Positions 24,400-42,741 of a stretch of DNA of 64,000 nucleotides are shown piece by piece. Below the pieces are notes generated by a model. That model saw nothing but the letters and a program-made list of their open reading frames with translations. It was not told the origin of the DNA and did no database searches. The stretch spans positions 5,699,272 to 5,763,271 of the forward strand of contig CP070233.1 in assembly GCA_017355425.1 (NCBI GenBank), written 5' to 3'. The stretch comes from Dolichospermum sp. DET69. Its GTDB lineage: Bacteria > Cyanobacteriota > Cyanobacteriia > Cyanobacteriales > Nostocaceae. Numbering within the stretch: the stretch's first letter is position 1; the number at the start of each line of letters is the position of its first letter. The translations under genes and the position numbers were made by a program.

Positions 24400-27300
24400 T
24401 CAGGACTTAGTTAAAAAAGCTTGAATCTTGTTTATAAAATCAACTAATTCTAGTACCAATTCATAAGCACCAACAAAACTCTGTTTGCGACTGAGTTGTT
24501 TTAGTTCTTCTGCAATTTTCTGCATGGCTGTAGCGCCAAAATTACCACTAGAACCTTTAAGATGATGAGCTTCTCTGGCCAGTTGAGGAAAGTCATTAAC
24601 GGCAATTGCGGCTTTAATTGCCTCTACATGAAACAGGCTATCTTCCACAAAAACTTTTAATATTTCTAACTCAAATTCTGGATCATTTTCTGAGATTTGA
24701 TGTAGATGTTCCCAATCAATTGGTAAATCTGTTAACGGATTATTTGTAATTAAAACTACTGACTCAGGTTCAGGAATAGTCACTACTCGTCCCGCTATAA
24801 TTCTCGAACTCCAAAGCTCTAATAATGTTGCTAATTTATCCTTAGTAATTGGTTTGCTAAAATAGTCATCCATACCAGCATCTAAACAATTCTGTTGATC
24901 CTCCTTCATGGCATTAGCAGTAATAGCAATAACTATAGGTTGTCGGTGATTAACAAATGAACTTATTTGCCGAGAACGAATTACTTTTGTAGTTTTTAAA
25001 CCATCGAGAATTGGCATTTGACAGTCCATCAAAATCAAATCATAGGCAATGTTATCCAACATTTCCAAAACTTCTTGGCCATTGGCGACGATATCAGCTT
25101 TATAGCCTAAACTGTGGAGTTGCTTGAGGATAACTTTTTGATTAACTGGATTATCTTCGGCTACGAGCAATTTTAACTTTGATTTTGTAGAATCAGGTAT
25201 TTTTTGATCCAACACAATTATAGAAGGTTGCTCAATTTTAGAAGATTGGAAATTATCTAATTTTGGTTGGCTTCCTAAAATATCCATGATAGTATCTAGC
25301 AAACGAGAAGGCTTTATTGGTTTAACTAAATAACTAATAAATCCTATGTTGATTGCTTTTTTCCATTCATCCTTTTGATTACTAGAAGTCAATAGAACTA
25401 AAGGAATATTGCTAATAGCAGAATTAGCCTTAATTTGTGATCCCAGCGTTAGACCATCTATCGCAGGCATTTGCATATCAATTAGAACAATATCATAGGG
25501 GTGATTTTCGGCAGCCTTTTGTAAAGCTGCAAGACCAGTATTTGCACAAGCAGCTTCATCCACCCACATTCCCCAATGAGTAGCTTGATGATAAATAATT
25601 CTCCGGTTAGTCCCATTGTCATCTATTACTAACAACCGCTTATTAGTCAATATATCAAGCTCCAAAATCTGAGAAGAAGGCTGGATTTGCTTCATAAAAG
25701 GTAGCTCAAACCAAAATTGAGATCCTTTACCCATTTGACTTTTTACGCCAATTTTTCCTCCCATTAAACTTACTAATTGTTGACAAATTGCTAATCCCAA
25801 ACCTGTGCCACCATATTGACGGGTAATAGAAGCATCAACTTGGCTAAATGCTTGAAAAAGTTTGTTTTGATCTTGAAGACTAATACCAATTCCTGTATCT
25901 ATAACAGTAAAATTGAGAATGACTAGATCCTGAGTTTCTGACTTCAATTCTACTTCTAATAATACCTCTCCTTCTTTGGTAAATTTCATAGCATTACCAA
26001 TCAGATTCATGATAATTTGTCGTAAGCGTCCCACATCTCCCCTCAGATATTTATAGACATTCTGTTCTACCAGTGTGGCAATTTCTAGTCCTTTTTGATG
26101 TGCTTGAGGAGCTAATAAATCTAGCACTTCTTCCAGACAATTGCAAAGATCGAAATCTATGCTTTCGATGATCATTTCTCCAGCTTCAAGTTTCGATAAA
26201 TCTAAAATCTCATTAATCAGAGATAAAAGAGCATCACCACTCACACGAACTATTTCTAAAAAATCTCTTTGTTCTGGGTTGAGAGGAGTTTCTAATAATA
26301 AACCAGTCATGCCCAAAATGCCATTCATGGGAGTACGAATTTCATGACTCATATTCGCTAAAAAACTACTTTTGGACAGAGATGCTAACTCAGCTTGATG
26401 ACGAGCAATTTCCAGTTCTCGTCTTTGTAGAATTTCCGCTTGCAGTAATTTAGCTTGAGCTAAAGCAATACCTATTTGATCAGATAAAGACTTGAGTAAT
26501 TCTGTTTCCCAGTTAGTCCATTGACGGGGTTGGGTACAATGATGAGCAATTAGTAAACCCCAAAATTTATCTTTGAGAAAAATAGGAACAACCAGGTTAG
26601 CTTTGACATTAAACTTTTGTAATAGTTCGATATGACAAGGCTGAATGTTAGCTTTTTCAATATCATTAATTACACTAATCCATCCTTGAGTATATTTCTC
26701 GATGTAATTTTTTGTCAAACAGGGTTCAACAATATTTGCCCCCATAACAACTGGAATACCGGGAATTAATGCTTCTTTCCGCGCTGTTAAAGAGCCATCG
26801 GCCAACAACTCTAGAATCACTACACGGTCAGTTTTCAACAGTTTCTGTACTTCTGTAACACTAGTTTGTAGAATATCATCTATCTGCAAAGAGTCGCGGA
26901 TTTTTAAAGTAATATCAGCTAATAATTGCGATCGCAAGTTGAAGTATTTTAGTTCTTCCTCGGCTTCTTTGCGTTTACTGATATCACGGCCTACACAAAT
27001 GAATCCGCCATCTTTCAACTTTGTCAGAGACATTTCTGCGGCAAAGTTACTGCTATCTTTTCTCTGAGCAATTGTTTCTCCATGCCAGTAACCTTGTTTC
27101 ATTAGTTCAGGGAATATCTTTTTTTCAAACAAGTTAACCTGCTCTTGTTCATAAACTTCTTGCCATTTTTTTCCTAGCAATTCCGTGGCATCACTATAGC
27201 TAAATATATTCACATAAGAGCTATTTAGATAAAGATAATTACCCTGTTTATCAACAATACTAATGCCATCACTCGCCGCTTCTACTGCTGCTAATTGCTG

Positions 27301-28167
27301 TTTTAGAGACTCTTCAGCTTGTTTGCGTTCAGTGATATCTATGCCGGTACAAACAATAAATTCAATTTCACCATTTTCATTTAAAACCGTTCTATTTGAC
27401 CAATTAATTAGCCGCAGATTTCCGTCTTTTATTCGCCAATAGTTTTCATATTCTTTTAACCCTTTACTTGATTTAATTTTTTTAAAAATAGATCGCACCG
27501 TTCGACGGCGTTTCGGTTCTGTAAATACGTTCCAAAAGCATTGATTTCTAACTTCATTGTAAGAATAACCCGTGGTTTCTTCACAAGCTCGATTAAATCC
27601 AATAATTTCCCCTTCTGGGTTAAGAACTATCACTAAAGCATTAACTGTATCTAATACCGTTGAGAGGAGCAAACTATCTAAATTACGCCGCCATTCTAAT
27701 TGTTTCATGACTTGGCGACCTAAAACATTTAATGCCTCTATCTGTTGTGATGCGAGTTGTCTTGGTATGTCATCAAGAACACAAAGCGCTCCCAAGCCAT
27801 AACCTTCATCATTAATTAGGGGTATGCCCGCATAAAAACGGATATTGGGATCTGATGTCACCAAGGGGTTATCCACAAATCTTGGATCTAAAGTAGCATC
27901 GGGAATGATCATGGGATCTGCTTGCTGGATAGCATGATTGCAAAAACCAATACTACGGGGTGTTTCTGATGCTTCTAGTCCAACTTTAGATTTAAACCAT
28001 TGGCGGTCCGTATCAACTAAGGTCATTACCGCCATGGGAGTTCCACAAATAAAAGAAGCTAAACGGGTAATATCATCAAACTCCTGTTCGGACTGAGTAT
28101 CAAGAATTCTGTATTGTAAAAGTGCTTCAATTCTTCCGGCTTCGTCATTGCGTAATAATGCTTTCAT
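24400..28167 (-). CDS. Hybrid histidine kinase with cyanobacteriochrome-type GAF, two PAS, two receivers and HPt
   Basis: 1255 residues. Order: GAF (about 20-165), PAS (170-285), PAS (290-405), second GAF (415-575), HisKA with MSHEIRTPM (His608), HATPase_c (N box NLIGNAMKF, G1 DTGIGI, G2 GTGLGLAI), receiver 1 (about 850-965, DMQMP), receiver 2 (about 1005-1125, DCQMP), HPt (about 1155-1250, EAHHLKGSSGNFG). The second GAF has Cys511-His512 (IQPCHIELL) and the WGLLIAHH strand, the signature of bilin-binding phytochrome/CBCR GAF domains, and EPCL at 481-484 where DXCF-type CBCRs have D-x-C-F. This suggests a light-sensing phosphorelay kinase. No membrane segments. Partner regulator unknown. Confidence 0.88.
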   Translation of the reverse strand: MKALLRNDEAGRIEALLQYRILDTQSEQEFDDITRLASFICGTPMAVMTLVDTDRQWFKSKVGLEASETPRSIGFCNHAIQQADPMIIPDATLDPRFVDNPLVTSDPNIRFYAGIPLINDEGYGLGALCVLDDIPRQLASQQIEALNVLGRQVMKQLEWRRNLDSLLLSTVLDTVNALVIVLNPEGEIIGFNRACEETTGYSYNEVRNQCFWNVFTEPKRRRTVRSIFKKIKSSKGLKEYENYWRIKDGNLRLINWSNRTVLNENGEIEFIVCTGIDITERKQAEESLKQQLAAVEAASDGISIVDKQGNYLYLNSSYVNIFSYSDATELLGKKWQEVYEQEQVNLFEKKIFPELMKQGYWHGETIAQRKDSSNFAAEMSLTKLKDGGFICVGRDISKRKEAEEELKYFNLRSQLLADITLKIRDSLQIDDILQTSVTEVQKLLKTDRVVILELLADGSLTARKEALIPGIPVVMGANIVEPCLTKNYIEKYTQGWISVINDIEKANIQPCHIELLQKFNVKANLVVPIFLKDKFWGLLIAHHCTQPRQWTNWETELLKSLSDQIGIALAQAKLLQAEILQRRELEIARHQAELASLSKSSFLANMSHEIRTPMNGILGMTGLLLETPLNPEQRDFLEIVRVSGDALLSLINEILDLSKLEAGEMIIESIDFDLCNCLEEVLDLLAPQAHQKGLEIATLVEQNVYKYLRGDVGRLRQIIMNLIGNAMKFTKEGEVLLEVELKSETQDLVILNFTVIDTGIGISLQDQNKLFQAFSQVDASITRQYGGTGLGLAICQQLVSLMGGKIGVKSQMGKGSQFWFELPFMKQIQPSSQILELDILTNKRLLVIDDNGTNRRIIYHQATHWGMWVDEAACANTGLAALQKAAENHPYDIVLIDMQMPAIDGLTLGSQIKANSAISNIPLVLLTSSNQKDEWKKAINIGFISYLVKPIKPSRLLDTIMDILGSQPKLDNFQSSKIEQPSIIVLDQKIPDSTKSKLKLLVAEDNPVNQKVILKQLHSLGYKADIVANGQEVLEMLDNIAYDLILMDCQMPILDGLKTTKVIRSRQISSFVNHRQPIVIAITANAMKEDQQNCLDAGMDDYFSKPITKDKLATLLELWSSRIIAGRVVTIPEPESVVLITNNPLTDLPIDWEHLHQISENDPEFELEILKVFVEDSLFHVEAIKAAIAVNDFPQLAREAHHLKGSSGNFGATAMQKIAEELKQLSRKQSFVGAYELVLELVDFINKIQAFLTKS

Positions 28168-28635: not shown

Positions 28636-29784
28636 GTGTATAACAATACAATTACAACAAATAATCCTCTTGTATCCTGGCGCTATGATTCCACGCTTTA
28701 CGGAAACCGAGATCTAAGGATTGATTTTCTCCGGGGCATTGCCATTGTTTCCATGGTATTCAATCATTTAGAAAGTTCTTCTTATTTCAGTGCTATCAAC
28801 AGGGGACATATTTACGCTAGTGCAGCCGAAGGCTTCGTATTTCTCTCTGGACTAGTATTAGGAATGGTGACATTAGGACGTATCAATAAAGTTGGCTTTT
28901 CCGAAGCCATGAAAAAACTGTTAGAGCGTTCTGGAAAACTTTATCTCACCAGTTTCATTTTAATGTCTGTCCTGGGTTTATTAAGTATAATTGCCCCCGG
29001 TTTGACCCGTCCGGCCTTTGATTTTGCGCCTGGGACTTGGTGGCAAATATTACTAGCGGCAGCTACATTCCATTTAGCACCACCTGTCATTGACATTTTG
29101 CAACTGTATGTATTGCTGTTGCTGTTTTCCCCCGCCATTTTCTGGATGTTAAGGAAAGGCTTTTGGTTGCCTGTTTTGGCTATTTCCTGGACATTTTGGA
29201 GTATCCAACAATTACATCCTTATGCCTTGAGTTTCCATCCTTTAGACAGAGAACATCCTTACTTTGCCTTAGCTGGTTGGCAAATTTTATATGTGCATGG
29301 CGTATTAGCAGGTTATTATCGTCAAAAACTACAAGAATTATGGGGAAAAATCCCGAAAATCCCCCTAGTTATAGGCTTGGTATTAATCGTCATTGGCTCA
29401 ATTACAACCGCACATTATGATATTCAGCTTGGTGTTTGGCCAGCCAAATTCTCAGATAGAGTTGCTTGGTTAGCATGGACAGACCGCAGTCGGGTGGGTT
29501 TTTTGCGTTTAATTAATCACATCGGTTTTTTCCCTTTGCTGTACATCATTGTGGATACATTTTGGCAACCGTTAAATAAAATTCTGGGGAAACTGTTGAT
29601 TAGTTTGGGTCAAAACTCCTTGTACGTCTATATTGTTCACGTTCCAGTCACAGTAATTTGGTTTTTAATTCCGGCTTTAGTTGATGGTAATCCCATAGTC
29701 ACTACTATTGCTCAGGCTGTAGCTGTGGGCTGCTTCTGGTGGCTGGTGAAAAAAGAAGTGTTGTTTAATATTATCCCCCGCTAA
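28636..29784 (+). CDS. OpgC-domain membrane protein (acyltransferase-like)
   Basis: 382 residues from a GTG start, with about ten membrane segments. Residues about 24-45 read RDLRIDFLRGIAIVSMVFNH, the OpgC/acyltransferase-3 opening with Arg-Gly and a His at the membrane face, followed by EGFVFLSGLVLG, also characteristic. In proteobacteria OpgC adds succinyl groups to periplasmic glucans. The next gene (DUF3131) begins 2 bp after the stop, so the two are translationally coupled. Cyanobacteria are not known for classical osmoregulated glucans, so the acceptor here is likely another envelope polysaccharide (inference). Confidence 0.85.
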   Translation: MYNNTITTNNPLVSWRYDSTLYGNRDLRIDFLRGIAIVSMVFNHLESSSYFSAINRGHIYASAAEGFVFLSGLVLGMVTLGRINKVGFSEAMKKLLERSGKLYLTSFILMSVLGLLSIIAPGLTRPAFDFAPGTWWQILLAAATFHLAPPVIDILQLYVLLLLFSPAIFWMLRKGFWLPVLAISWTFWSIQQLHPYALSFHPLDREHPYFALAGWQILYVHGVLAGYYRQKLQELWGKIPKIPLVIGLVLIVIGSITTAHYDIQLGVWPAKFSDRVAWLAWTDRSRVGFLRLINHIGFFPLLYIIVDTFWQPLNKILGKLLISLGQNSLYVYIVHVPVTVIWFLIPALVDGNPIVTTIAQAVAVGCFWWLVKKEVLFNIIPR

Positions 29785-29786
29785 CC

Positions 29787-31088
29787 ATGACACAAGATAC
29801 AACTATCAATCCTACTCCGATCCAACCTAGTTTATTAAAACAAACTATTATTGCTGCGGCGATCGCTTTAGTTGGTTTTGGATTGCATAAAGGAATACAA
29901 TGGCGTGAGACTGCCATTCTCCCAATTCCAGTTACTTCCCTTGGTCAAAATCGGCTGAATGCAGAAGATATACAATTAGCCCGTACAGCTTGGCGCTATT
30001 TCCAGAAAAATCGTTTATCCACGGGTTTAGTTTCTTCTGCTGCGGACTTTCCCAGTACAACAATGTGGGACGTGGGTAGTCAGTTAGCTGGTATGGTGGC
30101 AGCACGGGAATTAGGCTTACTCAAGCCGGCAGAATTTGATAAATGGATAGAGGAAGTGTTGGCTACTCTAGCTAAGATACCTTTGTACCGGAATGAGTTA
30201 CCAAACAAAGCCTATAACGCGAAAACTTTAATCCCGGTTAACTACGGAAAGTTGGCAAAACCCGAAGAAATTGGGTTTTCGGCCATTGATTTAGCACGAC
30301 TGGTGCAATGGCTAGATATAATCGCAACTCGATACCCCAAGCACGCTGCGGCCAGTCAAGCAGTCACGGCTCGTTGGCAGTTAAAGCGGTTAGTAGAGAA
30401 TGGACAGCTAATGGGGACAGGGATTAAAAATGGTCAGGAAACCTGGAACCAAGAAGGACGGCTAGGTTATGAACAATATGCAGCCTATAGATTACAAAAA
30501 ATTGGGATTTTAGCCGCCAAAGCACTCGATACCAAAGCCGAAACTCAGTTTCTCAATGTTATGGGTGTGGAAGTACCAGCGGATAAACGCAGCACCTATC
30601 ATAATTATGTCACTAGTGAACCCTATATTTTGGATGGGTTGGAAAGTGGTTTTCAGGCTTTACCTGCGGAATATGCAGCCAAGTTACTCCAAGTCCAACA
30701 ACGTCGCTATCAAGCCACCAATCAACTCACAGCCTGGTCTGAGGATAATTTAGATCGGGAGCCTTGGTTTGTCTACAATTGTATTTTTGTCAATGGTCAA
30801 CCCTGGAAAAGTATAGACTCATCTGGTAAAGATGCCTTTGTTTATCGAGGTAGTAGTGTTAAAGCCGCAATAGGCTGGAATATGCTTTTTCAAACTCCCT
30901 ATACAGAAAGACTTCATAAGGGTATGCGCTGGCTGGCTGATCCAAGTCGTGGCGTTTTTGCAGGTTTTTATGAGGAAACTCAAGAACCAAATCGAGCCTT
31001 AACTGTGAATACTAACGGTATAGTGTTGGAAGCAATACTATATCGTCGCGTGGGCAAACCGTTGACGGTTTGGGCTAAAGAACCCTAA
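29787..31088 (+). CDS. DUF3131 protein, membrane-anchored
   Basis: 433 residues with one N-terminal hydrophobic segment (LLKQTIIAAAIALVGFGLHK), then one DUF3131 domain from about residue 60. Repeated family blocks are visible: AWRYFQKN, SAADFPSTTMWDVGSQLAG, LPNKAYNAKTLIPVNYG, EGRLGYEQYAAYRLQ, TSEPYILDGLESGFQ, WSEDNLDREPWFVYN and the final NTNGIVLEAILY. The all-helical pattern with many Trp/Asp/Glu is like alpha/alpha-toroid glycoside hydrolases, which suggests, but does not prove, activity on glycans. Coupled to the OpgC gene. Confidence 0.85.
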   Translation: MTQDTTINPTPIQPSLLKQTIIAAAIALVGFGLHKGIQWRETAILPIPVTSLGQNRLNAEDIQLARTAWRYFQKNRLSTGLVSSAADFPSTTMWDVGSQLAGMVAARELGLLKPAEFDKWIEEVLATLAKIPLYRNELPNKAYNAKTLIPVNYGKLAKPEEIGFSAIDLARLVQWLDIIATRYPKHAAASQAVTARWQLKRLVENGQLMGTGIKNGQETWNQEGRLGYEQYAAYRLQKIGILAAKALDTKAETQFLNVMGVEVPADKRSTYHNYVTSEPYILDGLESGFQALPAEYAAKLLQVQQRRYQATNQLTAWSEDNLDREPWFVYNCIFVNGQPWKSIDSSGKDAFVYRGSSVKAAIGWNMLFQTPYTERLHKGMRWLADPSRGVFAGFYEETQEPNRALTVNTNGIVLEAILYRRVGKPLTVWAKEP

Positions 31089-31110
31089 TCATCTCCTATC
31101 TATCCTGTAT

Positions 31111-31218
31111 GGAACTTACGCATGAGTCACGGAATATACAAACAACTCCAGGCACAGAGAAAGGGACTTAGTGCGAACGACCGTTCGCCCCTACTGAGAG
31201 ATATTTTGCGTAAGTCCT
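31111..31218. mobile_element. MITE-like element with GGACTTACGCA ends, copy 2
   Basis: GGAACTTACGCA (31111) and TGCGTAAGTCCT (31207-31218) are inverted ends sharing the sequence of the element at 13148. About 108 bp; the interior differs and contains the GCGAACGACCGTTCGCCCCT palindrome common in cyanobacteria. Confidence 0.72.
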
Positions 31219-31253
31219 GACTTAAAAAACTAGACAAGAAAAAACCCTCAATT

Positions 31254-31459
31254 ATATTACCAATTACCAATTACCAATTACCAATTACCAATTACCAATT
31301 ACCAATTACCAATTACCAATTACCAATTACCAATTACCAATTACCAATTACCAATTACCAATTCAATTACCAATTACCAATTACCAATTACCAATTACCA
31401 ATTACCAATTACCAATTACCAATTACCAATTACCAATTACCAATTACCAATTGCCAATT
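31254..31459. repeat. Heptamer STRR array (TTACCAA)n
   Basis: About 29 head-to-tail heptamers TTACCAA, interrupted once near 31362 (ATTCAATTACC). STRR heptamers are a hallmark of heterocystous cyanobacteria. The array ends only 2-3 bp before the ATG of the next gene, so it replaces the usual ribosome binding region. Confidence 0.95.
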
Positions 31460-31461
31460 CC

Positions 31462-32853
31462 ATGATGAATTCTGATTTTGAGCCACCATCAAAAAAACTA
31501 TCTTTTATCGCTACCTTTGGCGGAGTTATAACCGCTGTAATCGCAATTATAGGTTTCAATTCTTTGTCAAAGTATTTAACTATAAATACTGATAATATTA
31601 GCAAGCTGAATACTAAATTAACAGTTGTAGCAGGTAAACCTATTGCTGCTGCCGAATTGACAACCACCAAAGGACCCTATATTGCCCCAGGAAGTGGGAA
31701 ATTAACCACAGAGGAAACTGCAATGGCGCGTCAAGCTTGGTTATACTTCCAACGTAATTGGAACGATCAAACTGGCTTGGTTAATTCTGTAGATAATTTT
31801 GCCTCTGTTACTATGTGGGATCAAGCCGCTGCTATGGCTGCTTTGGTCAGTGCTAAAGAACTTAATATCATTACGGTAGAAGAGTTTGAGAGCAAAATGA
31901 GTCAGATGTTAAAAACTCTAGCGTCTATGCCTTTGTATAAGGGAGAATTACCGAATAAAGTCTATAATTCAAAAACATTAATACCTGTAAATTATGGTCA
32001 ATTAGATAAACGAGAAGAAATTGGTTGGTCTGCTTTGGATTTAGGACGTTTAGCTATATGGCTGAATATTGTTGGTACAAAATATCCCAAAATGCGATCG
32101 CAAACAGAAGCCGTCTGGAAACATTGGCAAATCAAGCGCTTGGTCAAAAACGGGCAAATGTACGGTACTTCTGTTATTGCTGGTGAAGAACAGTATACCC
32201 AAGAAGGGCGTTTAGGTTATGAAAATTACGGAGCTTATGGGTTAAAACTCTGGGGTTTAGATGTCAAAAAAGCCTTAGATTATACATCTAATACAGACTT
32301 TGTAGACCTCTATGGACAGGGTGTTCCTTATGATAGACGGGATTATCAGAATTCAGGTGCAAATAATTATGTTCTCAGCGAGCCTTATATTTTAGATGGG
32401 ATTGAAACCGGATTTCAAGCTTTACCTAAAGCATTCTCAGACCGAATTTTAGCTGCTCAAGAAGCTCGTTATCAAAGAACTAAATTTTTAACTGCTGTCA
32501 CGGAAGATAATTTAGATCGCGCTCCTTACTTTGTTTATAGTAGTTTATTTGTGAATGGACAACCTTGGGCAACCATCACAGGAACAGGAAAAAAATATGA
32601 TGATCTACGTTTTCTCAGCGCTAAGGCCGCAGTAGGTTGGCACGTCCTGTATAATACTGCTTACACGGGCAAATTATTTAATTTTGTGCAAACTCAACTC
32701 AAATCTGATCAAGGTTGGTATAACGGGTTTTATGAAACTTTAAATCAGCCAAATAAAGCTCTTACTGCCAATAATAATGGTGTAATTTTAGAAAGCTTAC
32801 TTTATAAAAAAGTTGGTAAACCTCTCACGGTTTGGGCTGGAATAAAAGAGTAA
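31462..32853 (+). CDS. DUF3131 protein, membrane-anchored (second copy)
   Basis: 463 residues, closely related to the protein at 29787: one membrane anchor (SFIATFGGVITAVIAIIGF), then a single DUF3131 domain with SVDNFASVTMWDQAAAMAA, LPNKVYNSKTLIPVNYG, EGRLGYENYGAYGLK, LSEPYILDGIETGFQ, TEDNLDRAPYFVYSS and ANNNGVILESLLY. Tandem ATG ATG at 31462/31465; no Shine-Dalgarno site because the heptamer array runs up to the start. It probably arose by duplication of the neighbouring gene. Enzymatic function unproven. Confidence 0.85.
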   Translation: MMNSDFEPPSKKLSFIATFGGVITAVIAIIGFNSLSKYLTINTDNISKLNTKLTVVAGKPIAAAELTTTKGPYIAPGSGKLTTEETAMARQAWLYFQRNWNDQTGLVNSVDNFASVTMWDQAAAMAALVSAKELNIITVEEFESKMSQMLKTLASMPLYKGELPNKVYNSKTLIPVNYGQLDKREEIGWSALDLGRLAIWLNIVGTKYPKMRSQTEAVWKHWQIKRLVKNGQMYGTSVIAGEEQYTQEGRLGYENYGAYGLKLWGLDVKKALDYTSNTDFVDLYGQGVPYDRRDYQNSGANNYVLSEPYILDGIETGFQALPKAFSDRILAAQEARYQRTKFLTAVTEDNLDRAPYFVYSSLFVNGQPWATITGTGKKYDDLRFLSAKAAVGWHVLYNTAYTGKLFNFVQTQLKSDQGWYNGFYETLNQPNKALTANNNGVILESLLYKKVGKPLTVWAGIKE

Positions 32854-33115
32854 AGGAAAAGGTTATTTTGATGCTGTGAAATTCGATAATTTATGATTTC
32901 AATTTCCCTGCTTTTACAAAAAAAGGGAACAGGGAACAGGGAACAGATAAGAAACACTCATTTGCACCAGTTTAAAGCTCAGTCAAAAAAAAGATGTTTT
33001 TAAAAGATGCGTAGCACGAAAAAAACAGTGTCATTATTTCAATCTCATGTTTAAAAACATGAGTTTTACTGTTTACTCTACTTTTGAAATATTGAATTAT
33101 CAGTCAAAAAACAGG

Positions 33116-34519
33116 TCAAAATTTTATCTGTAATTGGCCTGTTAATATCTGATTATTGTACAGACTTTCCCCAGTCATGAGATTGTGAGACTTACCTAAA
33201 CTATAACCTAAGTCTAAGCCTATATTTGGTGATATTTTGACGGTACAGCGAGTTTGATAGCCAGTACCTCCACTTTTACTACCATTAACTATTTGTCTTC
33301 CCAAGGTGGTATTTAAACGACAATTTAAAAAAGGAAAAATGTTTTTTCCCCATCCGATTTCACCGTTATAAACTAGAGAAGATACTGGAGAAAAATAGCC
33401 ACTACTCTCTTGATTATCGCTTGCATACTTCCAAGCGAAAACATTACCAGCAAACCAAAATTCATCCCACTTATGTTCCAAGCGATTAAAAATCTGTTGT
33501 TCAAAATTACCATCATTATATAAACCCACACGATAGGAGCCAAAAAAGCTCGTATTAGGGTCAATTTGCCAAAAAGTATTGAAACCAGAGCGCGTAGCTG
33601 TAATTTGATTTTCCAGTGTTTTCACACTAGTTTTATAAGGACCTTGTTCTACGACTGCTGATAAAAATAAACTTGACTTGATGCTATTATCTGGATTGAG
33701 TTTAACGAAAATTGGTATATCTATCTGAGCATTGAAATTGAGAGCCATTGGTAAGCGATTAAATAGATCAATTCCTGCTCCTAATTTTATATTATATTGA
33801 CCTGTTTTTCCTTCCCATCCCAACTGAATGGGAATATTAGTAAGAGATGCAAATTTCGTTTGACTCAAGGTATTAAAGGCAGTTTTCAATTTAATTTTCT
33901 CGTCAAATAACCGAAATTGAAAGACTGGTTCAATAATTTGATTCTCCTGTTGGGAACTATTCAGGTCCTTACGAAACCCTGTTTGGATACTTTCCAAAAC
34001 AAATGCTGACCGAGGTGTAGTAGAATTTGGTTTTGAAGTTGGTTGTACTGTAGGAGTTGGTTGTGAAGTTGATTGTACCGTAGGAGTTGGTTGTCTTTGC
34101 GGAAGAGATACTTGTTGGGAAGTTAACCTTAGCTGAGGATTAAAGTTTTCAGGTGCAGCAATTAATATTGGTATTGACTGCAAATTCTGAGGAGGAAAGC
34201 TGCTGTCAAAAACTATGTTTAAGTTTTCTAAAATACCAAAATGTGTAATTTGTGCGGTCAATTCTGGAAATGAGTTCGAGTTTTCATCTAGTGGGAAAAA
34301 AATAGAGGAATCTGTTTCTGTAATATCTCCGTTATTTTGGCGTGAATTTGGTAAATTATCAACCACAGGAACCGGTTCTATCACAAGTGAGACTGAACCC
34401 CAATTTTCATCTGGTTGGATAGGAGCAGCAGATACAGACTTAATCCCGAAACTAGTGATGATACTTATTGGAAAAAATAAATATAGTATTCGTTGTCGCA
34501 AGTCCAGTGAGAGTAACAT
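33116..34519 (-). CDS. Predicted outer-membrane beta-barrel protein
   Basis: 467 residues with a signal peptide (cleavage likely after FGIKSVSAA). A Pro/Gln/Ser/Thr-rich linker (QPTPTVQ units, about 140-170) separates a variable N-terminal region from a C-terminal half of alternating polar/aromatic strands (FNTFWQIDPNTSFFGSYRVG, FWFAGNVFAWKY) ending QLQIKF, with the terminal Phe typical of Bam-inserted barrels. It lies between DUF3131 genes and the GT2 synthase. By analogy with the barrel domain of BcsC it may form the export pore; this is inference. Confidence 0.65.
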   Translation of the reverse strand: MLLSLDLRQRILYLFFPISIITSFGIKSVSAAPIQPDENWGSVSLVIEPVPVVDNLPNSRQNNGDITETDSSIFFPLDENSNSFPELTAQITHFGILENLNIVFDSSFPPQNLQSIPILIAAPENFNPQLRLTSQQVSLPQRQPTPTVQSTSQPTPTVQPTSKPNSTTPRSAFVLESIQTGFRKDLNSSQQENQIIEPVFQFRLFDEKIKLKTAFNTLSQTKFASLTNIPIQLGWEGKTGQYNIKLGAGIDLFNRLPMALNFNAQIDIPIFVKLNPDNSIKSSLFLSAVVEQGPYKTSVKTLENQITATRSGFNTFWQIDPNTSFFGSYRVGLYNDGNFEQQIFNRLEHKWDEFWFAGNVFAWKYASDNQESSGYFSPVSSLVYNGEIGWGKNIFPFLNCRLNTTLGRQIVNGSKSGGTGYQTRCTVKISPNIGLDLGYSLGKSHNLMTGESLYNNQILTGQLQIKF

Positions 34520-35064
34520 TTTACAAAACAGCTACGTAAGGGAATAGAATTAATATTCTCATATTAATACCTTTACCAATTTACTAGGGTGAGTTAATGT
34601 ATCCAAGATTAACGGCAGATATGGCTGATAGCTTGCGTGGACTCATAAACCTTATTTTTAGGTGGCAGTAATTAATATAGCAAGATATCGGAAGAGATTA
34701 CCGCCACTTTCTCGCTGTTTTGCGGAAATCCTAGAGGGCTAGAAGTTCAGGAGTATCGCTAACGCCATGCTTCGCTATCAGGAGGATTTAGAAGTAATAT
34801 CAAGTCTGGAAAATTGAACAATTTTTGATACTATGATCATATTTTTCTTGCACCTCATTTACCTTTTATACAGATAAAAATCTTGATGCGTCTGGGTTTT
34901 AGGTTTATTCAGCAAACCCTATATAATATATTTTATATCAGTATTGATGAATCTAAGCTGGTATATCAGGTTCATCTGGTGAACTTATGATCATTTATCT
35001 CCTCTTTCATAGCGACAAGAATCAAGTAATTCTACTAACCTCAAGTATCTAAATCATCCAAAAG
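34520..35064. other. Intergenic region
   Basis: 545 bp, no gene recognised. A TATCGCTAACGCCATGCTTC copy of the short dispersed repeat lies near 34753-34778. The rest is AT-rich with the promoter of the 34519 gene by position. Confidence 0.5.
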
Positions 35065-37944
35065 TTAATTCGTGTCATCTTTGACATTAATCCAGTAATG
35101 TTCAGTGCCATTAGTCACAAATTGGGTTTTTTGAGTAGAAGTATTCGGTAGACCCCGACCAGAATTACCATCAGCTACTGCTCGCCACCAGGGTGATTTC
35201 ATATCCGTATTAGGACGGAGGAGGGGTTGTTGCTTTGTTGCTGTATACAGTAAAGATTGTAGAATCATACTGTTAGTGCTACTAGTAGAACCAAGAGCGG
35301 TTTTACCTGTTTTTTCATAAAAACCTTCATAAAAGCCCAGCAAAGGATTGTATAAGTCCGTTGTTGCCTTGATTAATTCCTGAGTATAGGTATCTTTAGG
35401 CAATAAAGCATAATAGGCAAATGCTACAGCCGAACTGACTAATCTTCCCTCTGGTAGTAGTTTACCATCATCATCTAAGGCTGCCCAAGGCTGATTTTGA
35501 CCAATAATCGAACTGTGGACGGTGTAAGGTTGACGCTCAATGAGAGTAGTAGCTGAGGCAGTAAGAGTCTCAGTCTTAAGGTAGCGTTGGGCTTGAGCTT
35601 GATATACTGCTGTAAAGAGCGATCGCATTTTTGGATCTAAACCAAACTCTAGAGCATACAGCAGAAAAGGATTACTAACGGTATATTGATTAACCTTTGA
35701 TTTTGTATCTTTACGAAGCCGTTCAATGGGGACTTCTACCCCCTCCACTGATGTTGTTTTATATTCACCACCCACAGCAGATTTATCAACATTAAATCCC
35801 CACAATTGAAAACCTCTAGCAGCATATTCTTCATAACCCAAACGGGTTTCAGGATTAATTCTGGGGACTAACCGCCCACTTTTATCTTTGGTGACATTGG
35901 CGCTAGAAAGAATACCTTCCCGCACAACCCGCAAGTATGACCAATCGAGAGCAATTTGATCAACAACTTCCGTATATTCGGGGTGATCTGTTTTTAAATT
36001 ATAAAGGGCTGCTAATAGTCTTCCCACATCTAAAGACGACCAGCCAGTACCTTCTGGAACTGGATTACCACCATAATCTACTGGTTGCAATGTTCGCGGA
36101 TCATAACCCCGACTCGGTAATTCCCCTGCATACAGCGGTATCTGCGCTAAAGCACTCAACAACTGTCGAATGCGTTGATCAAATTCCTTGGGAGAAATTA
36201 TATCCATTGCCCATGCTGCATTGAGCGCTGTTAAATAGTCTCCTAATCCCCACAATGTTGAACCCTTAACATCAGAGCGATCGCTCACCAATCCTGTGCT
36301 AGGCTGAGAATTAGCGGAGAAATAGTTCCAGGCCGCTTGAGCGTAGCGTCTTTGCACAACTGTTAACGGTTTAGGTAATGGTTTAGCTGGCTGCGGGACA
36401 CCCAAGGATGGAATAGGTTTAACTATCAGCGGAGGTGGGTTAGTCGCTGTATTAGTCTTAGCAGGTGTAACATTTATGGGAATAGGACTTTGGGCTGGAG
36501 TCGGGGAATTTGCAGCAGGTGATTTAGAATCTGAGGGTTTAGAATCTGAGGGTTTAGAATCTGAGGGTTTAGAATTTGAGGGTTTAGAATCTGAGGGTTT
36601 AGAATCTGAGGGTTTAGAATCACCAGACGGTATTTTTGCAAAACTCACCCCACTACCACCAATTAAGGGGCGATTTCCTCTAGCTTTATAATATAAAATC
36701 TCCATGATTAGGCCATTAGTATTACCTGTCAAGGATTTATTAGGTTTTTTTGTTTCTTCATACAGTCCAGCGTAGAAGCCACCACCTTTAGGATCACGTA
36801 AATCCTTAACAGCATCAAAAACCTTTTGAGCATAAGCATTACCTGGATAAAGATAGCGCCAGCCAAAGGCAGCTTTAGTGCTAATACTCCGCAACTCTGT
36901 ATAGGGCTTATTTTTCTCCGTAATTGTTGCCCAAGCAACTCCATTAGAGTAAATAGTATTGTAGAGAAAATAAGGAGGTTGATCAATATTGTCTTCAGAA
37001 ACAGCAGTTAGTTGTCCCGTAGATTCAAAGCGTCGCTTTTGTACTTCTAAAATGTCAGCAGCATATTTTTTTAAATAACCTTCTAAGCCAAATTCAATAC
37101 CATCAAGAATATAGGATTCACCGACTACATAATTATTAGCATTAGTGCTTTGAAAATCACGGGTATCAACAGGAATTTTCACCCCGTTAATATCTACAAG
37201 TTTGAAAGGCTCTAAAGCCACCGCTTTGGGTGCTTTAAATCCCCATAGTTCATAACCCCTAACAGCATATTCCTCATAACCAAGTCGTCCTTCTTGTACC
37301 AACAATGTTTTACCATTAGGTAAAACAACTGCTCCGTAAAGTTGGTCATCTTTCAGTGATCTTGCTAACTGCCACTTACTGAGAACTCCCTTCAGCCAAT
37401 TTTTATATTGAGGATGACAAGTACCAATAATATGAAAAGCAGCCAATATGCGACCAATATCCAAAGCTGACCAACCCAGACCCTTTTCTAGAGGTTTATT
37501 CCCATAATCAGTCATTTTTCCATTAGCAGCATTATATACCTTATTTGGTAAAGCGTTTTCAAATAAACTAAGATTAGCAAAATTGGTAAGAAATTTATTA
37601 AAGCGCGAATCAAATTCCGACTGGTTAATCAAATTCATCCACCGCGCTGCATTCAAAGCCATTAGGTAATTACCAATGTCCCAGAGAGTACCAGAAGGAT
37701 AACCACCAGTAGAATTAGTAAACCCTGTATTTGCTTGATAGTTATTGACAAAATACTGCCAAGCTGCACGAGCGTAAGTCTGTTCCTCCGGTGTTAGAGG
37801 CGCTGAAATTTGACTACAGCCATTAGGAGTAGAATTTTGTGCTAAAGATACTGTAGGCACACAGAACAGAAATTGCAGAAATGCTCCACTTAGGAACAAT
37901 GCAATCCATCTTAATAGTTTGTAGTGACGGTGTTGCTGTATCAT
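35065..37944 (-). CDS. Secreted protein with two DUF3131 domains
   Basis: 959 residues. Signal peptide (WIALFLSGAFLQFLFCVPTV, then SLAQ). Domain 1, about 45-425, has NKVYNAANGKMTDYG, EGRLGYEEYAVRGYE, GESYILDGIEFGLE and SEDNIDQPPYFLYN. A low-complexity linker of seven or so SKPSD units (15-bp DNA repeats, about 36527-36617) and a Pro-rich stretch follow. Domain 2, about 535-930, has TGLVSDRSDVKGSTLWGLGD and ETRLGYEEYAARGFQ. The two domains are diverged, so the fusion is not recent. Exported helical-toroid domains suggest glycan processing in the periplasm or outside. Confidence 0.85.
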   Translation of the reverse strand: MIQQHRHYKLLRWIALFLSGAFLQFLFCVPTVSLAQNSTPNGCSQISAPLTPEEQTYARAAWQYFVNNYQANTGFTNSTGGYPSGTLWDIGNYLMALNAARWMNLINQSEFDSRFNKFLTNFANLSLFENALPNKVYNAANGKMTDYGNKPLEKGLGWSALDIGRILAAFHIIGTCHPQYKNWLKGVLSKWQLARSLKDDQLYGAVVLPNGKTLLVQEGRLGYEEYAVRGYELWGFKAPKAVALEPFKLVDINGVKIPVDTRDFQSTNANNYVVGESYILDGIEFGLEGYLKKYAADILEVQKRRFESTGQLTAVSEDNIDQPPYFLYNTIYSNGVAWATITEKNKPYTELRSISTKAAFGWRYLYPGNAYAQKVFDAVKDLRDPKGGGFYAGLYEETKKPNKSLTGNTNGLIMEILYYKARGNRPLIGGSGVSFAKIPSGDSKPSDSKPSDSKPSNSKPSDSKPSDSKPSDSKSPAANSPTPAQSPIPINVTPAKTNTATNPPPLIVKPIPSLGVPQPAKPLPKPLTVVQRRYAQAAWNYFSANSQPSTGLVSDRSDVKGSTLWGLGDYLTALNAAWAMDIISPKEFDQRIRQLLSALAQIPLYAGELPSRGYDPRTLQPVDYGGNPVPEGTGWSSLDVGRLLAALYNLKTDHPEYTEVVDQIALDWSYLRVVREGILSSANVTKDKSGRLVPRINPETRLGYEEYAARGFQLWGFNVDKSAVGGEYKTTSVEGVEVPIERLRKDTKSKVNQYTVSNPFLLYALEFGLDPKMRSLFTAVYQAQAQRYLKTETLTASATTLIERQPYTVHSSIIGQNQPWAALDDDGKLLPEGRLVSSAVAFAYYALLPKDTYTQELIKATTDLYNPLLGFYEGFYEKTGKTALGSTSSTNSMILQSLLYTATKQQPLLRPNTDMKSPWWRAVADGNSGRGLPNTSTQKTQFVTNGTEHYWINVKDDTN
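36527..36617. repeat. 15-bp coding repeat (SKPSD linker)
   Basis: About six or seven TTTAGAATCTGAGGG units in direct tandem, coding for the Ser-Lys-Pro-Ser-Asp linker on the minus strand; one unit carries a single change (Asn for Asp). Likely length-variable between strains. Confidence 0.85.
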
Positions 37945-38202
37945 TTATAAATAAAATTTGAGAACCATTCAGGGAGGACTAGAGTGCTAGAGAAGAGAGA
38001 ATCACTTCGCTATAGTTAGAAATGACACCAAAAATCTGATACATTAAATAACAACTCTACTTTAGCAAGCTACAGGAATCCTCAATGATGTCTAAAAAAT
38101 ATCAAGGACTATAGGGAGTTCAAATCAAAAATCAAATACGTGACTCTTATAAAAACAAACAACCGCTAATTGACTAATTTAAATTTTATTTTTGGTAGCA
38201 AA

Positions 38203-40233
38203 ATGAATTCAGCGTCCTCTAGTTATGATTCAGCCAATTTTTCCGGTAATAGCCGTTCAACACTGAAAAAAAGAACCCTACTTTTTCGGTACTTAGCGGA
38301 AATAAACTTAATTTTTGGTGCTTGGTATTTACAATGGCGGATAACTCATTCTATCAACTTTGATGCTCTATGGCTGTCTATTCCTTTATTGCTGGCGGAA
38401 ATTTACAGCTATTTCGGGGGAGTTATGTTTGTCATTGGATTATGGCGGCCTATAGTCCGACAGGTTAAGTCTCTCAATCAGTTAAGCCCACCCCTTCCTA
38501 ACTGTGATTGGGCAAATGTAGATGTGTTTATAACCTGCTATAATGAACCCTCAGAAATGGTGGAAGAAACTGCTAGAGCAGCTTTAGCGATAGATTATCC
38601 AACCACAAAGCTGCGTGTATATGTATTAGATGATGGTAATTCTGAACAAATGCGAGCCATGTCAGAAAGATTAGCTCTAGAGGATTTACAATCACCATTA
38701 TTACAACAGGAAGCTAATCGAATTGACGGGGAATTATCTACTTTAAATCAACGAATTGAGCAACTGGAAAATCTAGCACCTGAAGTAAAAGCCGCTGAAG
38801 AATGGCTGCAAAAATCATCTTTAAATACTTTAAATACTTTCGAGGATATTCCCGCTAGATTTGTCCACAGTTTACAACAGTTTATTCTCTGGTTAAATCC
38901 TCAAAATCAAAATAGTCATCATGCCAGTAAATCAACTATATATGAACATCTTAATCATGAACGTAGCGCATTAGAATTAGCAATTCGTCAAAAAGAATTA
39001 GAACTTGTGCAACTGGTTAGGTTGCGGTATATTGCTCGTCCTAAACAACCAGGAGTACCTCATCATGCTAAAGCAGGTAATCTCAATTACGCCATTTTTT
39101 CTGGAGAGACCGCAGGAGATTTTATTCTTACTTTAGATGCAGATCATGTTCCTAAACCAGCATTTTTAAAGCGAGTTTTGACATATTTCTATACCTATAA
39201 TTTGTATTCAGGAAAATATCAACCAAACCGTATTGCATTTGTGCAAACTCCTCAAGATTTTTATAATATTCCCCCTGGAGACCCCTTTGGACATCGAGCC
39301 AATTTATTTTATGGACCCATTCAACAAGGTAAAGATGGCATGAATTCAGCTTTCTACACAGGTACAAATGCAGTCCTAAGAAGAGAAGCATTAGTTAGTG
39401 TGGGTTTACAATATTTTGCAGATGAATTTGTCAAAGATGGTAAAAAATTAGATGAATTTGAATTAATTGGTGGTGTTTCTAGTAATAGTATTACCGAAGA
39501 TATGAATACAGCCATGCGGTTGCATAGTTCTGGTTGGAAATCAATTTATCATCATGAATTATTAGCAGAAGGACTTGCTCCTGATGATTTAAGTTCTACC
39601 CTCAAACAGCGAATGCGCTGGTCTCAAGGTACAATTCAAGTGTTAATGAGAGAAAATCCTCTCACCAAACCAGGACTGACATTTTGGCAACGATTACACT
39701 ATTTTAAGACAACATATAGTTATTTTTCTGGATTTGCAACTTTGGTTTTTATTGCTTGTCCCATTATCTATTTTTTTACGGGAACTATCCCCGTGAAAAC
39801 TTATGGCTTTGATTTTACTATCCATTTTCTTCCAACTTTTATAATTAATAGGTTGACTTTTTTAGCTGCTGGTTGGGGAATTAATGCTGCGGAATTATGG
39901 CGTTCAGAACAATATTCTATCTCTTTATTTCCCCTATTCATTCAATCTGTATGGAGTGTATTAACCGGACAACCTATTAAATTTCAGGTTACACCTAAGC
40001 AGCGACAATCAGGAATCTATCTCCAGCTAATCTGGCCACAAATAACTGTGTTTATTTTGATGATTTTAGGTATAATATGGAGTATATATCGTCTCGCTAT
40101 TGGTCAGTTAGAAACTCCTTGGGTTTATTTGATCAACACATTATGGGGTATATATATTTTATCTCTACTTTGGGCAATTATCAGTGCTGCTGTTTGGCAA
40201 CCGCAGGACTTACATAAAACAGAAGGAAAGTAG
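38203..40233 (+). CDS. Cellulose-synthase-like GT2 glycosyltransferase
   Basis: 676 residues from ATG 38203; a TTG at 38170 would add 11. Two N-terminal helices, then the GT2 core: VFITCYNEP, first Asp in YVLDDGNS, DADH in LTLDADHVPK, TED in SNSITEDMNTA and the QxxRW motif in KQRMRWSQGT, followed by five to six more membrane helices. These are the processive beta-glycan synthase motifs of BcsA/CesA; there is no PilZ domain, so no direct c-di-GMP control is expected. A coiled-coil-like insert of about 110 residues (about 165-275) lies between the DDG and substrate regions. Likely product: a linear beta-linked exopolysaccharide. Confidence 0.88.
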   Translation: MNSASSSYDSANFSGNSRSTLKKRTLLFRYLAEINLIFGAWYLQWRITHSINFDALWLSIPLLLAEIYSYFGGVMFVIGLWRPIVRQVKSLNQLSPPLPNCDWANVDVFITCYNEPSEMVEETARAALAIDYPTTKLRVYVLDDGNSEQMRAMSERLALEDLQSPLLQQEANRIDGELSTLNQRIEQLENLAPEVKAAEEWLQKSSLNTLNTFEDIPARFVHSLQQFILWLNPQNQNSHHASKSTIYEHLNHERSALELAIRQKELELVQLVRLRYIARPKQPGVPHHAKAGNLNYAIFSGETAGDFILTLDADHVPKPAFLKRVLTYFYTYNLYSGKYQPNRIAFVQTPQDFYNIPPGDPFGHRANLFYGPIQQGKDGMNSAFYTGTNAVLRREALVSVGLQYFADEFVKDGKKLDEFELIGGVSSNSITEDMNTAMRLHSSGWKSIYHHELLAEGLAPDDLSSTLKQRMRWSQGTIQVLMRENPLTKPGLTFWQRLHYFKTTYSYFSGFATLVFIACPIIYFFTGTIPVKTYGFDFTIHFLPTFIINRLTFLAAGWGINAAELWRSEQYSISLFPLFIQSVWSVLTGQPIKFQVTPKQRQSGIYLQLIWPQITVFILMILGIIWSIYRLAIGQLETPWVYLINTLWGIYILSLLWAIISAAVWQPQDLHKTEGK

Positions 40234-40448: not shown

Positions 40449-40781
40449 ATGACTTCTAAAATTCACGTCTTTGAACCATCAGGAATTTTAAACGCCACCT
40501 CCGGTAATGAATTACGTCGTCAAATTACTGATATCATTAATAATGGAGTTAATATGCTATTGATTGATATGTCAAAGGTGACGTTTATTGATAGTTCTGG
40601 TTTAGGTGCTTTAGTGGGAGCAATGCAAAGTGTTAGAAATGCTAAAGGAGAACTATTTGTATGTTCCATTAATGATCAAGTCAAAATGTTATTTGAATTA
40701 ACGAAAATCAATCGAGTTTTGAACATATTAAGTAATAGAGAAGTGTTTGATAACAAAGTATTAGAACTAGAAAATGCTTAA
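40449..40781 (+). CDS. STAS-domain anti-sigma-factor antagonist
   Basis: 110 residues, a single STAS domain. The phosphorylation motif is VTFIDSSGLGALVGAMQ (Ser in DSSG), the site that an anti-sigma kinase phosphorylates and a PP2C phosphatase dephosphorylates. AGGAAG precedes the start. Together with the PP2C at 40994 and the kinase at 42322 it makes a complete partner-switching set, like the Slr1859-1861 set in Synechocystis or HmpUVW in Nostoc punctiforme. Position after the GT2 synthase hints at polysaccharide control. Confidence 0.9.
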   Translation: MTSKIHVFEPSGILNATSGNELRRQITDIINNGVNMLLIDMSKVTFIDSSGLGALVGAMQSVRNAKGELFVCSINDQVKMLFELTKINRVLNILSNREVFDNKVLELENA

Positions 40782-40993: not shown

Positions 40994-42199
40994 TTAGGGA
41001 TTTTGACAGCCACTAAAATTAACTCGTAGTAAAGACAAATCATCATCAAAATTTTCGTTGCCGCTGATATTTATAATCTCAGGTAAGAGTTGATTAATAT
41101 GATTGTTATTTGACTGATTATGGGTGAGCAATAAATTAACGAAGGAGTCGAAACCCCAAATTTGTCCCTCTGGTTGCAGCAGTTCGTAAGCACCATCACT
41201 AAAAATATATAAAGTGCTGTTTTCTGCAACTTCCAAAATAGCAGTTTCAAAACTGATATCTCGTAAAAAGCCAATGGGTAAATCTAGAGATTCTAGTTTT
41301 ATAACCTCAATGCTGGAGGGGGCATTTCCAGATATTAATACAGCCGGTGGATGTCCAGCGTTACCATAAACTAGCTGATGATTAACACGATTAAAAACAC
41401 AGTACAAAATGGTAAAGTATTTATCGCCATGTTTACTCATTTGAAAACTTTCATTGAGTGCCTTGAGAACTTCTGCTGGTTGACAAAAATTAGTATTTGG
41501 TAGAGACTGCGATCGCAAGATATTCAATACAGATACAGATAACAAAGCCGAACCTACACCATGACCAGAGACATCTAATAGATAAATTGCCAAATGTTCA
41601 TCGTCAATCCAATAGTAATCAAAACAATCCCCTCCCAACTGTGCTGAAGGTACAAATAAAGATTCTATGGTTACTGATCCTATAATCGGTAATGGTAAAA
41701 GCGATCGCACATAATCAGCAGCTTCAGCTAGTTCGGTTTCTAAAACCTGCTTTTGATGCTGCAAATCTCGATTTAACTGCTCTAAAATTTGCTTTTGATG
41801 CTGCAAATCTCGACTTAATTGATGTAGCCTTAATCCTGCTCTTACCCGTGCTTTTAATTCATTCATCTCAATGGGTTTAGAAATAAATTCATCTGCTCCT
41901 GCATCCAATCCTCTAACACGATCATCTTCCTCTCCTAAAGAAGCTCCTTTTGCAGTCAGAAGAATAAAAAAAGTTGTAGCTAATTCCGGATCTGACTTAA
42001 TCAGACGACACACTTGTAAACCATCTATCCCAGACATTACCCAATCACAGATAATGAGAGCGGGACATAATTTTTTTGCTTCTATTATTCCCTCTTCGCC
42101 ATTAGCCGCTATGGTAACATCATAGCCCTGGGTTTTCAGAGTTTTTTTCAAAACCATTCGTAAGATAGGATCATCATCAATGACGAGGATTTTAAACAT
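40994..42199 (-). CDS. Response regulator with PP2C (SpoIIE/RsbU) phosphatase domain
   Basis: 401 residues. REC domain 1-125 (VIDDDP, CDWVMS phospho-Asp, SKPI), a short coiled coil containing two near-identical LNRDLQHQKQ units (135-155), and a PP2C-type phosphatase domain from about 175: PSAQLGGDCFDYYWID, YLLDVSGHGVGSALLSV and YIFSDGAYE supply the metal-binding Asp residues. It should dephosphorylate the STAS protein when the receiver is active. Gene is in opposite orientation to its presumed partners, which flank it. Confidence 0.9.
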   Translation of the reverse strand: MFKILVIDDDPILRMVLKKTLKTQGYDVTIAANGEEGIIEAKKLCPALIICDWVMSGIDGLQVCRLIKSDPELATTFFILLTAKGASLGEEDDRVRGLDAGADEFISKPIEMNELKARVRAGLRLHQLSRDLQHQKQILEQLNRDLQHQKQVLETELAEAADYVRSLLPLPIIGSVTIESLFVPSAQLGGDCFDYYWIDDEHLAIYLLDVSGHGVGSALLSVSVLNILRSQSLPNTNFCQPAEVLKALNESFQMSKHGDKYFTILYCVFNRVNHQLVYGNAGHPPAVLISGNAPSSIEVIKLESLDLPIGFLRDISFETAILEVAENSTLYIFSDGAYELLQPEGQIWGFDSFVNLLLTHNQSNNNHINQLLPEIINISGNENFDDDLSLLRVNFSGCQNP

Positions 42200-42321: not shown

Positions 42322-42741
42322 ATGAATCATAAAATCTACCTAAAAACCAATACAGATATTAATGCTACAAGTGAAGTTTTATCCTGGCTGGAGCAAATCA
42401 ACCAGCCCCCATTTAATAATCAAACAATTTGGTGGGAATTACAAACACTACTAGTAGAAGGATTTATTAATATTGTAGAACACGCCCACAAAAAATTACC
42501 CAGAGAAACTCCGATTGAATTAGAAGTTATTAGACTCGAAGAAGATATAGAAATTCGGATATGGTCTTGGGGAGAACCTTTTGAGTTAGAAAAGCAATTG
42601 CAAATAACTTCAGCATTAGAGGATAATGATCAAGAAAGAGGACGGGGATTGCAAATAATGTCCTCCATTGCTGACAAACTGTCTTATAAACTAACAGATG
42701 ACAATCGTTATTGTTTATTTATCAGTAAACATTATTGTTAG
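42322..42741 (+). CDS. Anti-sigma-factor-type serine kinase / HATPase (RsbW-like)
   Basis: 139 residues, one HATPase_c domain: N box LLVEGFINIVEHAHKKL, G1-like IWSWGEPFE and G2-like DQERGRGLQIMSSIADKL. RsbW/SpoIIAB-type kinases phosphorylate a STAS partner on Ser; the G1 box is weak (SWGEP), which is common in this family. Divergent from the PP2C gene with a 122-bp gap. It completes the local switch. Confidence 0.82.
   Translation: MNHKIYLKTNTDINATSEVLSWLEQINQPPFNNQTIWWELQTLLVEGFINIVEHAHKKLPRETPIELEVIRLEEDIEIRIWSWGEPFELEKQLQITSALEDNDQERGRGLQIMSSIADKLSYKLTDDNRYCLFISKHYC

Follow-up and report, generated by a model that had tools for sequence, protein, structure and literature searches.

Genes of the DUF3131 locus

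The 64,000-nucleotide stretch of Dolichospermum sp. DET69 analyzed here (hereafter the window; CP070233.1, positions 5,699,272 to 5,763,271) contains a locus that combines a cellulose synthase-like (CesA-like) glycosyltransferase of family 2 (GT2), four copies of DUF3131, which is a domain without assigned activity in Pfam, a predicted outer-membrane β-barrel, and an OpgC-like acyltransferase. A sequence-only reading had placed six genes at 28636–40233, and both the coordinates and the Pfam matches agree with it, the barrel gene being without a Pfam family. The first gene (28636..29784, plus strand) encodes an OpgC-like membrane acyltransferase with a PF10129 (OpgC_C) match of 171 bits and seven transmembrane-like segments in a simple hydropathy scan. 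It is separated, as previously noted, by a gap of 2 bp from a gene encoding a membrane-anchored single-DUF3131 protein (29787..31088, plus strand; PF11329, 461 bits), which displays one N-terminal transmembrane-like segment and intact candidate acids, i.e. Asp, Glu, and Glu at the diagnostic positions. These positions are Asp120, Glu254, and Glu348 in the numbering of the next protein (31462..32853, plus strand; PF11329, 524 bits), which is also membrane-anchored with a single DUF3131 and has all three residues. Its nearest named relatives are from Dolichospermum, with 97% identity in D. planctonicum NIES-80. On the minus strand, beside the barrel gene (33116..34519, also minus strand), lies the gene for an exported double-DUF3131 protein (35065..37944; PF11329 matched twice, 1024 bits in total) with a signal-like N terminus and one N-terminal hydrophobic segment. 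The candidate acids are intact in its domain 1 (36670..37779, minus strand), and domain 2 (35227..36348, minus strand) is degenerate, with Gly, Glu, and Thr at positions 120, 254, and 348. No other DUF3131 domain was detected at E ≤ 0.001 in this 6.04-Mb genome.

Structure prediction supports the barrel proposed at 33116..34519. The AlphaFold2 model (mean pLDDT 71.5, pTM 0.62) consists of a disordered, low-confidence leader of ~145 residues followed by 16 strands, a region where pLDDT blocks are mostly 85–96, and the C-terminal Phe is invariant across 32 aligned relatives. This protein has one weak NCBIfam match, to PgaA (E=0.0034, far under the cut-off), and its profile finds nothing in the PDB at E ≤ 1. 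As described earlier, the GT2 (38170..40233, plus strand) is cellulose synthase-like without PilZ: it matches the Pfam Cellulose_synt and GT2 models, with no PilZ match. Translation probably does not begin at its TTG, and an in-frame ATG at 38203 is the likelier start. It displays the motifs DDG, DAD, TED, and QRMRW. Of its cyanobacterial relatives, all 41 have TED and QxxRW, 40 have DDG, and 36 the DxD pattern.

Although the six genes stand, the bounds of the locus do not, because control genes on both flanks were missed. The unit spans ~24400–42741 and consists of ten genes, in which kinase and partner-switching genes belong with the glycan genes. A hybrid sensor kinase (24400..28167, minus strand), with GAF, PAS, HisKA, HATPase, two REC, and Hpt domains identified by Pfam, is divergent from opgC. 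Downstream of the GT2 gene, Pfam identifies a STAS anti-sigma-antagonist-like protein with a DSSG motif (40449..40781, plus strand), a response regulator fused to a SpoIIE-type PP2C phosphatase (40994..42199, minus strand), and an RsbW-like HATPase_c_2 kinase (42322..42741, plus strand). The RsbW/STAS/PP2C module is thus complete at the locus, including the candidate phosphorylatable Ser in STAS, one of nine STAS domains in the genome. The phosphatase displays GGD, DVSGHG, and DDD motifs.

Conservation in Cyanobacteria and on proteobacterial plasmids

The distribution of these genes was surveyed in 386 genomes of the same phylum. DUF3131 was found in 22 genomes and the GT2 (cut-off E ≤ 1e-60) in 17, of which 16 are DUF3131-positive. 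The barrel was found in 18 genomes at E ≤ 0.001: 16 at E < 1e-60, the cut-off used for presence, all of which are DUF3131-positive, and two with weak matches, which are DUF3131-negative. OpgC_C matches occur in 20 genomes at E ≤ 0.001, seven of them above the Pfam cut-off, and full-length OpgC in only three (G000, G243, and G035), all DUF3131-positive. Co-occurrence with DUF3131, assessed by hypergeometric tests that ignore kinship, yielded p values of 1.5e-22 (GT2) and 8.8e-24 (barrel) by genome, and 4.8e-11 (GT2), 1.7e-13 (barrel), and 0.01 (OpgC) by genus. Within the window's own genus, six of nine sampled genomes are without DUF3131, GT2, and barrel, and the set therefore seems to have been gained or lost together.

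DUF3131-positive genomes without a GT2 match are G035, G066, G089, G236, G326, and G332; those without a barrel match are G035, G066, G089, G236, G249, and G332. G035, which is divergent and 87% complete, carries OpgC, STAS, RsbW-like, PP2C, hybrid kinase, and DUF3131 genes on one contig. In G326 (C223) DUF3131 and barrel are in pieces with stops, and in G249 the GT2 has an in-frame stop (C1:2097306-2099315); both seemingly hold decaying copies of the locus. G129 (C33:44588-46930 and C134:20257-20895), the only one of the 386 genomes with a GT2 and no DUF3131, contains a 2926-aa open reading frame (ORF) that matches PF10091, like cyclic glucan synthases; this is possibly a functional replacement, or a coincidence.

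Gene order was inspected in 80 loci, the best 80 of 579 DUF3131 relatives, all cyanobacterial. A recurrent order is apparent (barrel, DUF3131, double DUF3131, GT2, STAS, PP2C, RsbW), and across these loci we counted GT2 (41), PP2C (34), barrel (33), STAS (33), kinase (19), RsbW (19), and OpgC (6). The interpretation given by the sequence-only reading, supported in part, needs revision here, as OpgC is an optional component of the cyanobacterial loci. The 80 loci contain 40 full GT2 genes, 37 with at least 1.2 kb downstream, and in 29 of these 37 a STAS gene lies within 1.5 kb 3′ on the same strand. PP2C is near GT2 in 12 of the 15 loci with room, and an RsbW-like gene in three of eight. A relative of the hybrid kinase (E ≤ 1e-90) is found in 19 of the 80 loci, and G243 has, as judged by size and position, an ORF of 1255 aa, as long as the window kinase, divergent beside an opgC-sized ORF (L126).

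A plasmid search returned 27 records, of which 13 were inspected: one Nostoc (H1), ten close proteobacterial, and two distant ones. Plasmid pn1 of Nostoc sp. UHCC 0926 (L034, 1.04 Mb) carries DUF3131 genes and a GT2, a placement that is consistent with horizontal spread. The close group comprises Vibrio, Chimaeribacter, three Pantoea, Salmonella, two Paracoccus, Pseudooceanicola, and Rhodobacteraceae SC52, with gene contents taken mostly from annotation. All ten loci have a GT2, two or three DUF3131, STAS, PP2C, and an RsbW-like gene, the latter being a small ATP-binding gene beside STAS, identified by annotation in nine and by Pfam in Vibrio. An acyltransferase is present in nine (OpgC in six, another type in three), and none was found in Vibrio. 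The earlier proposal that the genes form one linked machine is thus supported by a gene set conserved both in Cyanobacteria and in ten alpha- and gammaproteobacterial plasmid loci; the families do co-occur in other genomes, contrary to the absence of co-occurrence named beforehand as evidence against it.

Some of these loci also have carbohydrate-related genes nearby: Vibrio and Paracoccus liaowanqingii have GH16, Chimaeribacter has GH2 and an esterase, and an NTP-transferase gene occurs as well. The outer-membrane candidates are a TPR protein of P. liaowanqingii that matches the PgaA barrel and seven other proteins (five enterobacterial, one each in SC52 and P. seriniphilus), which are homologous to one another and to the G035 protein that follows OpgC. 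The G035 protein and two of the five enterobacterial candidates do not end in Phe. When searched against 18 neighbor proteins of the non-cyanobacterial and G035 loci, the cyanobacterial barrel profile showed no homology (best E 0.55). In the two distant records, Mesorhizobium and Sulfitobacter, DUF3131 is part of a larger protein beside a GT2 gene, and polysaccharide-deacetylase-type domains are found in the DUF3131 protein of the former and the GT2 protein of the latter; no STAS or OpgC was found within the stretch inspected. The GT2 and DUF3131 DNA of Chimaeribacter had no match in E. coli genomes.

The wider gene set also bears on whether the locus is a variant of the cellulose (bcs) operon, which we regard as improbable. 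BcsA is the nearest solved structure to the window GT2 (at most 170 bits), and this protein scores 320 bits against the CelA model of NCBIfam, short of the cut-off of 699. It is, however, closer to five DUF3131-linked proteobacterial GT2s (246–283 bits) than to BcsA, and neither TED nor QxxRW is matched in the proteobacterial partner enzymes. Bcs membership was rejected since neither BcsB (PF03170) nor BCSC_C (PF05420) has a match in the genome, the E. coli control being positive. As in Bcs/Pga secretion, an inner-membrane GT2, a periplasmic processing protein, and an outer-membrane barrel are encoded together, as judged by gene content and prediction, but DUF3131 takes the place of the hydrolase-like protein, and STAS/PP2C/RsbW stand instead of PilZ. 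Two weak PgaB-type matches (PF14883) were found in the genome, neither near the locus.

OpgC might signal a pathway for an osmoregulated periplasmic glucan (OPG) rather than an exported polymer. The combination of OpgC and GT2 resembles opgGH/opgC, and OpgC succinylates OPGs in Dickeya, according to the text available for that study (PMC4726272). We nevertheless consider this quite unlikely, since no MdoG/OpgG (PF04349) match was found in the window genome (E. coli control positive), for which membership in the OPG pathway was rejected. Moreover, the outer-membrane-type barrel co-occurs with DUF3131, OpgC mostly does not, and the locus differs by its CesA-like GT2, barrel, and partner-switch genes.

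DUF3131 domains and GH189

Profiles of DUF3131 were compared to the PDB. A profile of 32 domains (A3) produced one match below 0.001 in hmmsearch, to 8WY1 (E=3.4e-4), and a profile of 17 more diverse domains (A6) produced three matches to E ≤ 10, all cyclic β-1,2-glucan synthases, at 1.1e-4 (8WY1), 0.5, and 0.5. A phmmer search with a single DUF3131 returned just one chance-level match. 8WY1 is the GH189 cyclization domain TiCGSCy, as given in the part of the publication available (PMC10834661). A profile-profile comparison in hhalign, made against seven GH189 sequences of the phylum, aligned 116 columns in the N-terminal half (probability 91.7, E=7.8e-7). From these profile comparisons, we conclude that DUF3131 is, in its N-terminal half, distantly homologous to GH189 of cyclic β-1,2-glucan synthases. 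The AlphaFold2 model of the 31462..32853 domain (pLDDT 96, pTM 0.95) is mostly helical, with eleven helices of at least 10 residues, which would fit an (α/α)6 toroid. DUF3131 differs from GH189 in that its C-terminal half is too diverged for significance, and in architecture: GH189 is a domain of a ~2900-aa synthase, whereas DUF3131 forms separate exported proteins without GH94.

The GH189 catalytic pair is E1356/E1442, in the accessible portion of its description (PMC10834661), and that of the SGL clan lists E239, F286, and Y367 in XcSGL numbering (PMC12102758). In one sub-significant local and two forced global alignments, Glu348 of DUF3131 (motif SED/TED) falls on the nucleophile Glu1442 (motif ISES), whose position was derived from those of W1394 and E1356 in an alignment, and the acid/base Glu1356 has no clean counterpart. 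The part assigned to DUF3131 by the sequence-only reading, glycan processing, gains support from the distant GH189 homology and the conserved acids, as a prediction from sequence. The link provides a testable activity and a substrate list.

In open-licence literature, DUF3131 was found by name in three papers and PF11329 in none. We take BMEI1837 to be the cyclic glucan synthase of Brucella. This protein is named DUF3131 in the text available for one study (PMC6382750).

Retention and loss of the candidate acids follow a marked pattern. In 37 two-domain proteins, window included, domain 1 has Asp120, Glu254, and Glu348 in 37/37, and domain 2 has Gly, Tyr, and Thr at 120, 312, and 348 in 37/37, with His at 359 and a retained Glu254 each in 36. 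Seven of eight three-domain proteins have lost Glu348 from the middle domain. Among 106 cyanobacterial domains that are each the sole full one of their ORF, Glu254 is present in 105 and Glu348 in 102. In the five enterobacterial loci the middle DUF3131 copy has both Glu254 and Glu348, and the outer two are without Glu254. Under the Glu254/Glu348 rule, a degenerate copy is present in seven of the ten close proteobacterial loci and absent from those of Vibrio, SC52, and Paracoccus seriniphilus; we therefore gave up the idea that intact and degenerate copies are paired at every locus. A tree was built from 46 domains representing 237, of which 22 are cyanobacterial and 24 proteobacterial. It requires five changes of the intact/degenerate label, at least four of them forced by well-supported branches. 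Altered partner copies therefore evolved more than once, and the idea of a single ancient lineage of degenerate domains was rejected.

This pattern could also be produced by a non-catalytic DUF3131, i.e. a glycan-binding scaffold guiding the chain from GT2 to barrel like the periplasmic parts of alginate/PNAG exporters. Loss of candidate acids in 37/37 second domains, several separate losses on the tree, several copies per locus, and the lack of a Glu254 equivalent in 14 of 29 proteobacterial domains are all in line with a scaffold. It is, however, an unlikely explanation, because a scaffold would have no need for the near-complete retention of Glu254 and Glu348 in sole cyanobacterial domains and of both in all first domains, and because DUF3131 is detectably homologous to a family of enzymes.

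A candidate polysaccharide secretion system and its putative control

Taken together, these findings make it probable that the locus is a regulated synthase-dependent polysaccharide secretion system, with DUF3131 acting as a periplasmic hydrolase or transglycosylase. From gene content and homology we infer the following steps: (i) the CesA-like GT2 would polymerize and extrude a β-glycan, (ii) intact periplasmic DUF3131 would cut, trim, or transglycosylate the chain, (iii) degenerate copies, where present, would probably bind or position it, (iv) OpgC, where present, would acylate the product (with succinyl by analogy), (v) the 16-stranded barrel would release it, and (vi) the hybrid kinase and the PP2C-STAS-RsbW partner switch would gate expression or activity. 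As to the glycan itself, kinship to GH189 hints at a β-1,2 linkage, and the GH16 neighbors at a β-1,3 or mixed linkage.

Several observations weigh against this secretion-system reading. Regarding linkage, a GT2 is within reach of DUF3131 in 41 of the 80 loci (31 of the 50 loci of at least 20 kb), DUF3131 is alone in 25, some on short contigs, and OpgC is in just six. G129 has the GT2 without DUF3131, and G332, at the thresholds used, has a full DUF3131 but no GT2 and no barrel. The loci of Vibrio and Pseudooceanicola yielded no outer-membrane candidate. None of nine proteobacterial GT2s has the TED or QxxRW pattern, DDG being the only motif matched; in the two sequences read directly, changed motifs (SED and QRFKY) explain the failure. 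Regarding catalysis, the two PDB matches that follow 8WY1 for profile A3 (0.19 and 2) are unrelated proteins, and C-terminal halves alone are not significantly similar to GH189 (E=0.2). Since homology is significant for the N-terminal half alone, the catalytic mapping is only suggestive. Finally, among 29 proteobacterial domains the Glu254 equivalent is present in 15 and that of Glu348 in 19, and both distant domains have Ala at 254.

A more specific proposal, which we put forward tentatively, is that DUF3131 may be a new glycoside hydrolase/transglycosylase family of the GH189 lineage, acting in trans on the nascent GT2 product, often beside a substrate-holding degenerate copy that arose several times independently. 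In Cyanobacteria, Rhodobacterales, Vibrio, and Enterobacterales, the product would be an undescribed exported acylated β-glucan that may be cyclic or transglycosylated, and in some lineages the partner switch would receive input from a heme sensor (annotated globin or H-NOX). Hybrid kinase or response-regulator genes are annotated in proteobacterial loci too, and beside the kinases three of these loci have an annotated globin and one an annotated heme-NO-binding protein (L036 14885-15334, L145 14858-15292, L144 14816-15250, L039 8699-9241), which suggests a gas or redox input. The annotated globin of Chimaeribacter (L036) has no Pfam match at E ≤ 0.01. The locus may also be an instance in which partner switching controls a polysaccharide synthase that lacks PilZ.

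Similar gene sets have been inventoried in enterobacteria. Accessory block 3b of Klebsiella pneumoniae, in the text available, contains cellulose synthase, three DUF3131, OpgC, hybrid kinase, and anti-sigma factor plus antagonist, and is one of the accessory blocks with the strongest ties to the main population-structure axis (PMC12974863). For Salmonella SGI3, the available part of the report lists OpgC, a cellulose synthesis protein, β-galactosidase, hybrid kinase, antagonist, and serine phosphatase, without the term DUF3131 (PMC3401170). In the portions available, both are gene inventories without a mechanism or a cyanobacterial link, which we liken to the present locus by description only. 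Beyond these unexplained islands, no description of the system was found in open-licence literature. The conserved unit is a candidate exopolysaccharide system common to bloom-forming cyanobacteria and enterobacteria.

Elsewhere in the window, a REC-GGDEF-EAL protein is encoded upstream of the hybrid kinase (20337–22067). A DUF6671 protein (43311–44162) adjoins the partner-switch genes downstream, followed by SelO (44349–45806). A second hybrid-kinase-type gene lies ~10 kb past the unit (52549–55773), and a group II intron reverse transcriptase/maturase is encoded at 56394–58106.

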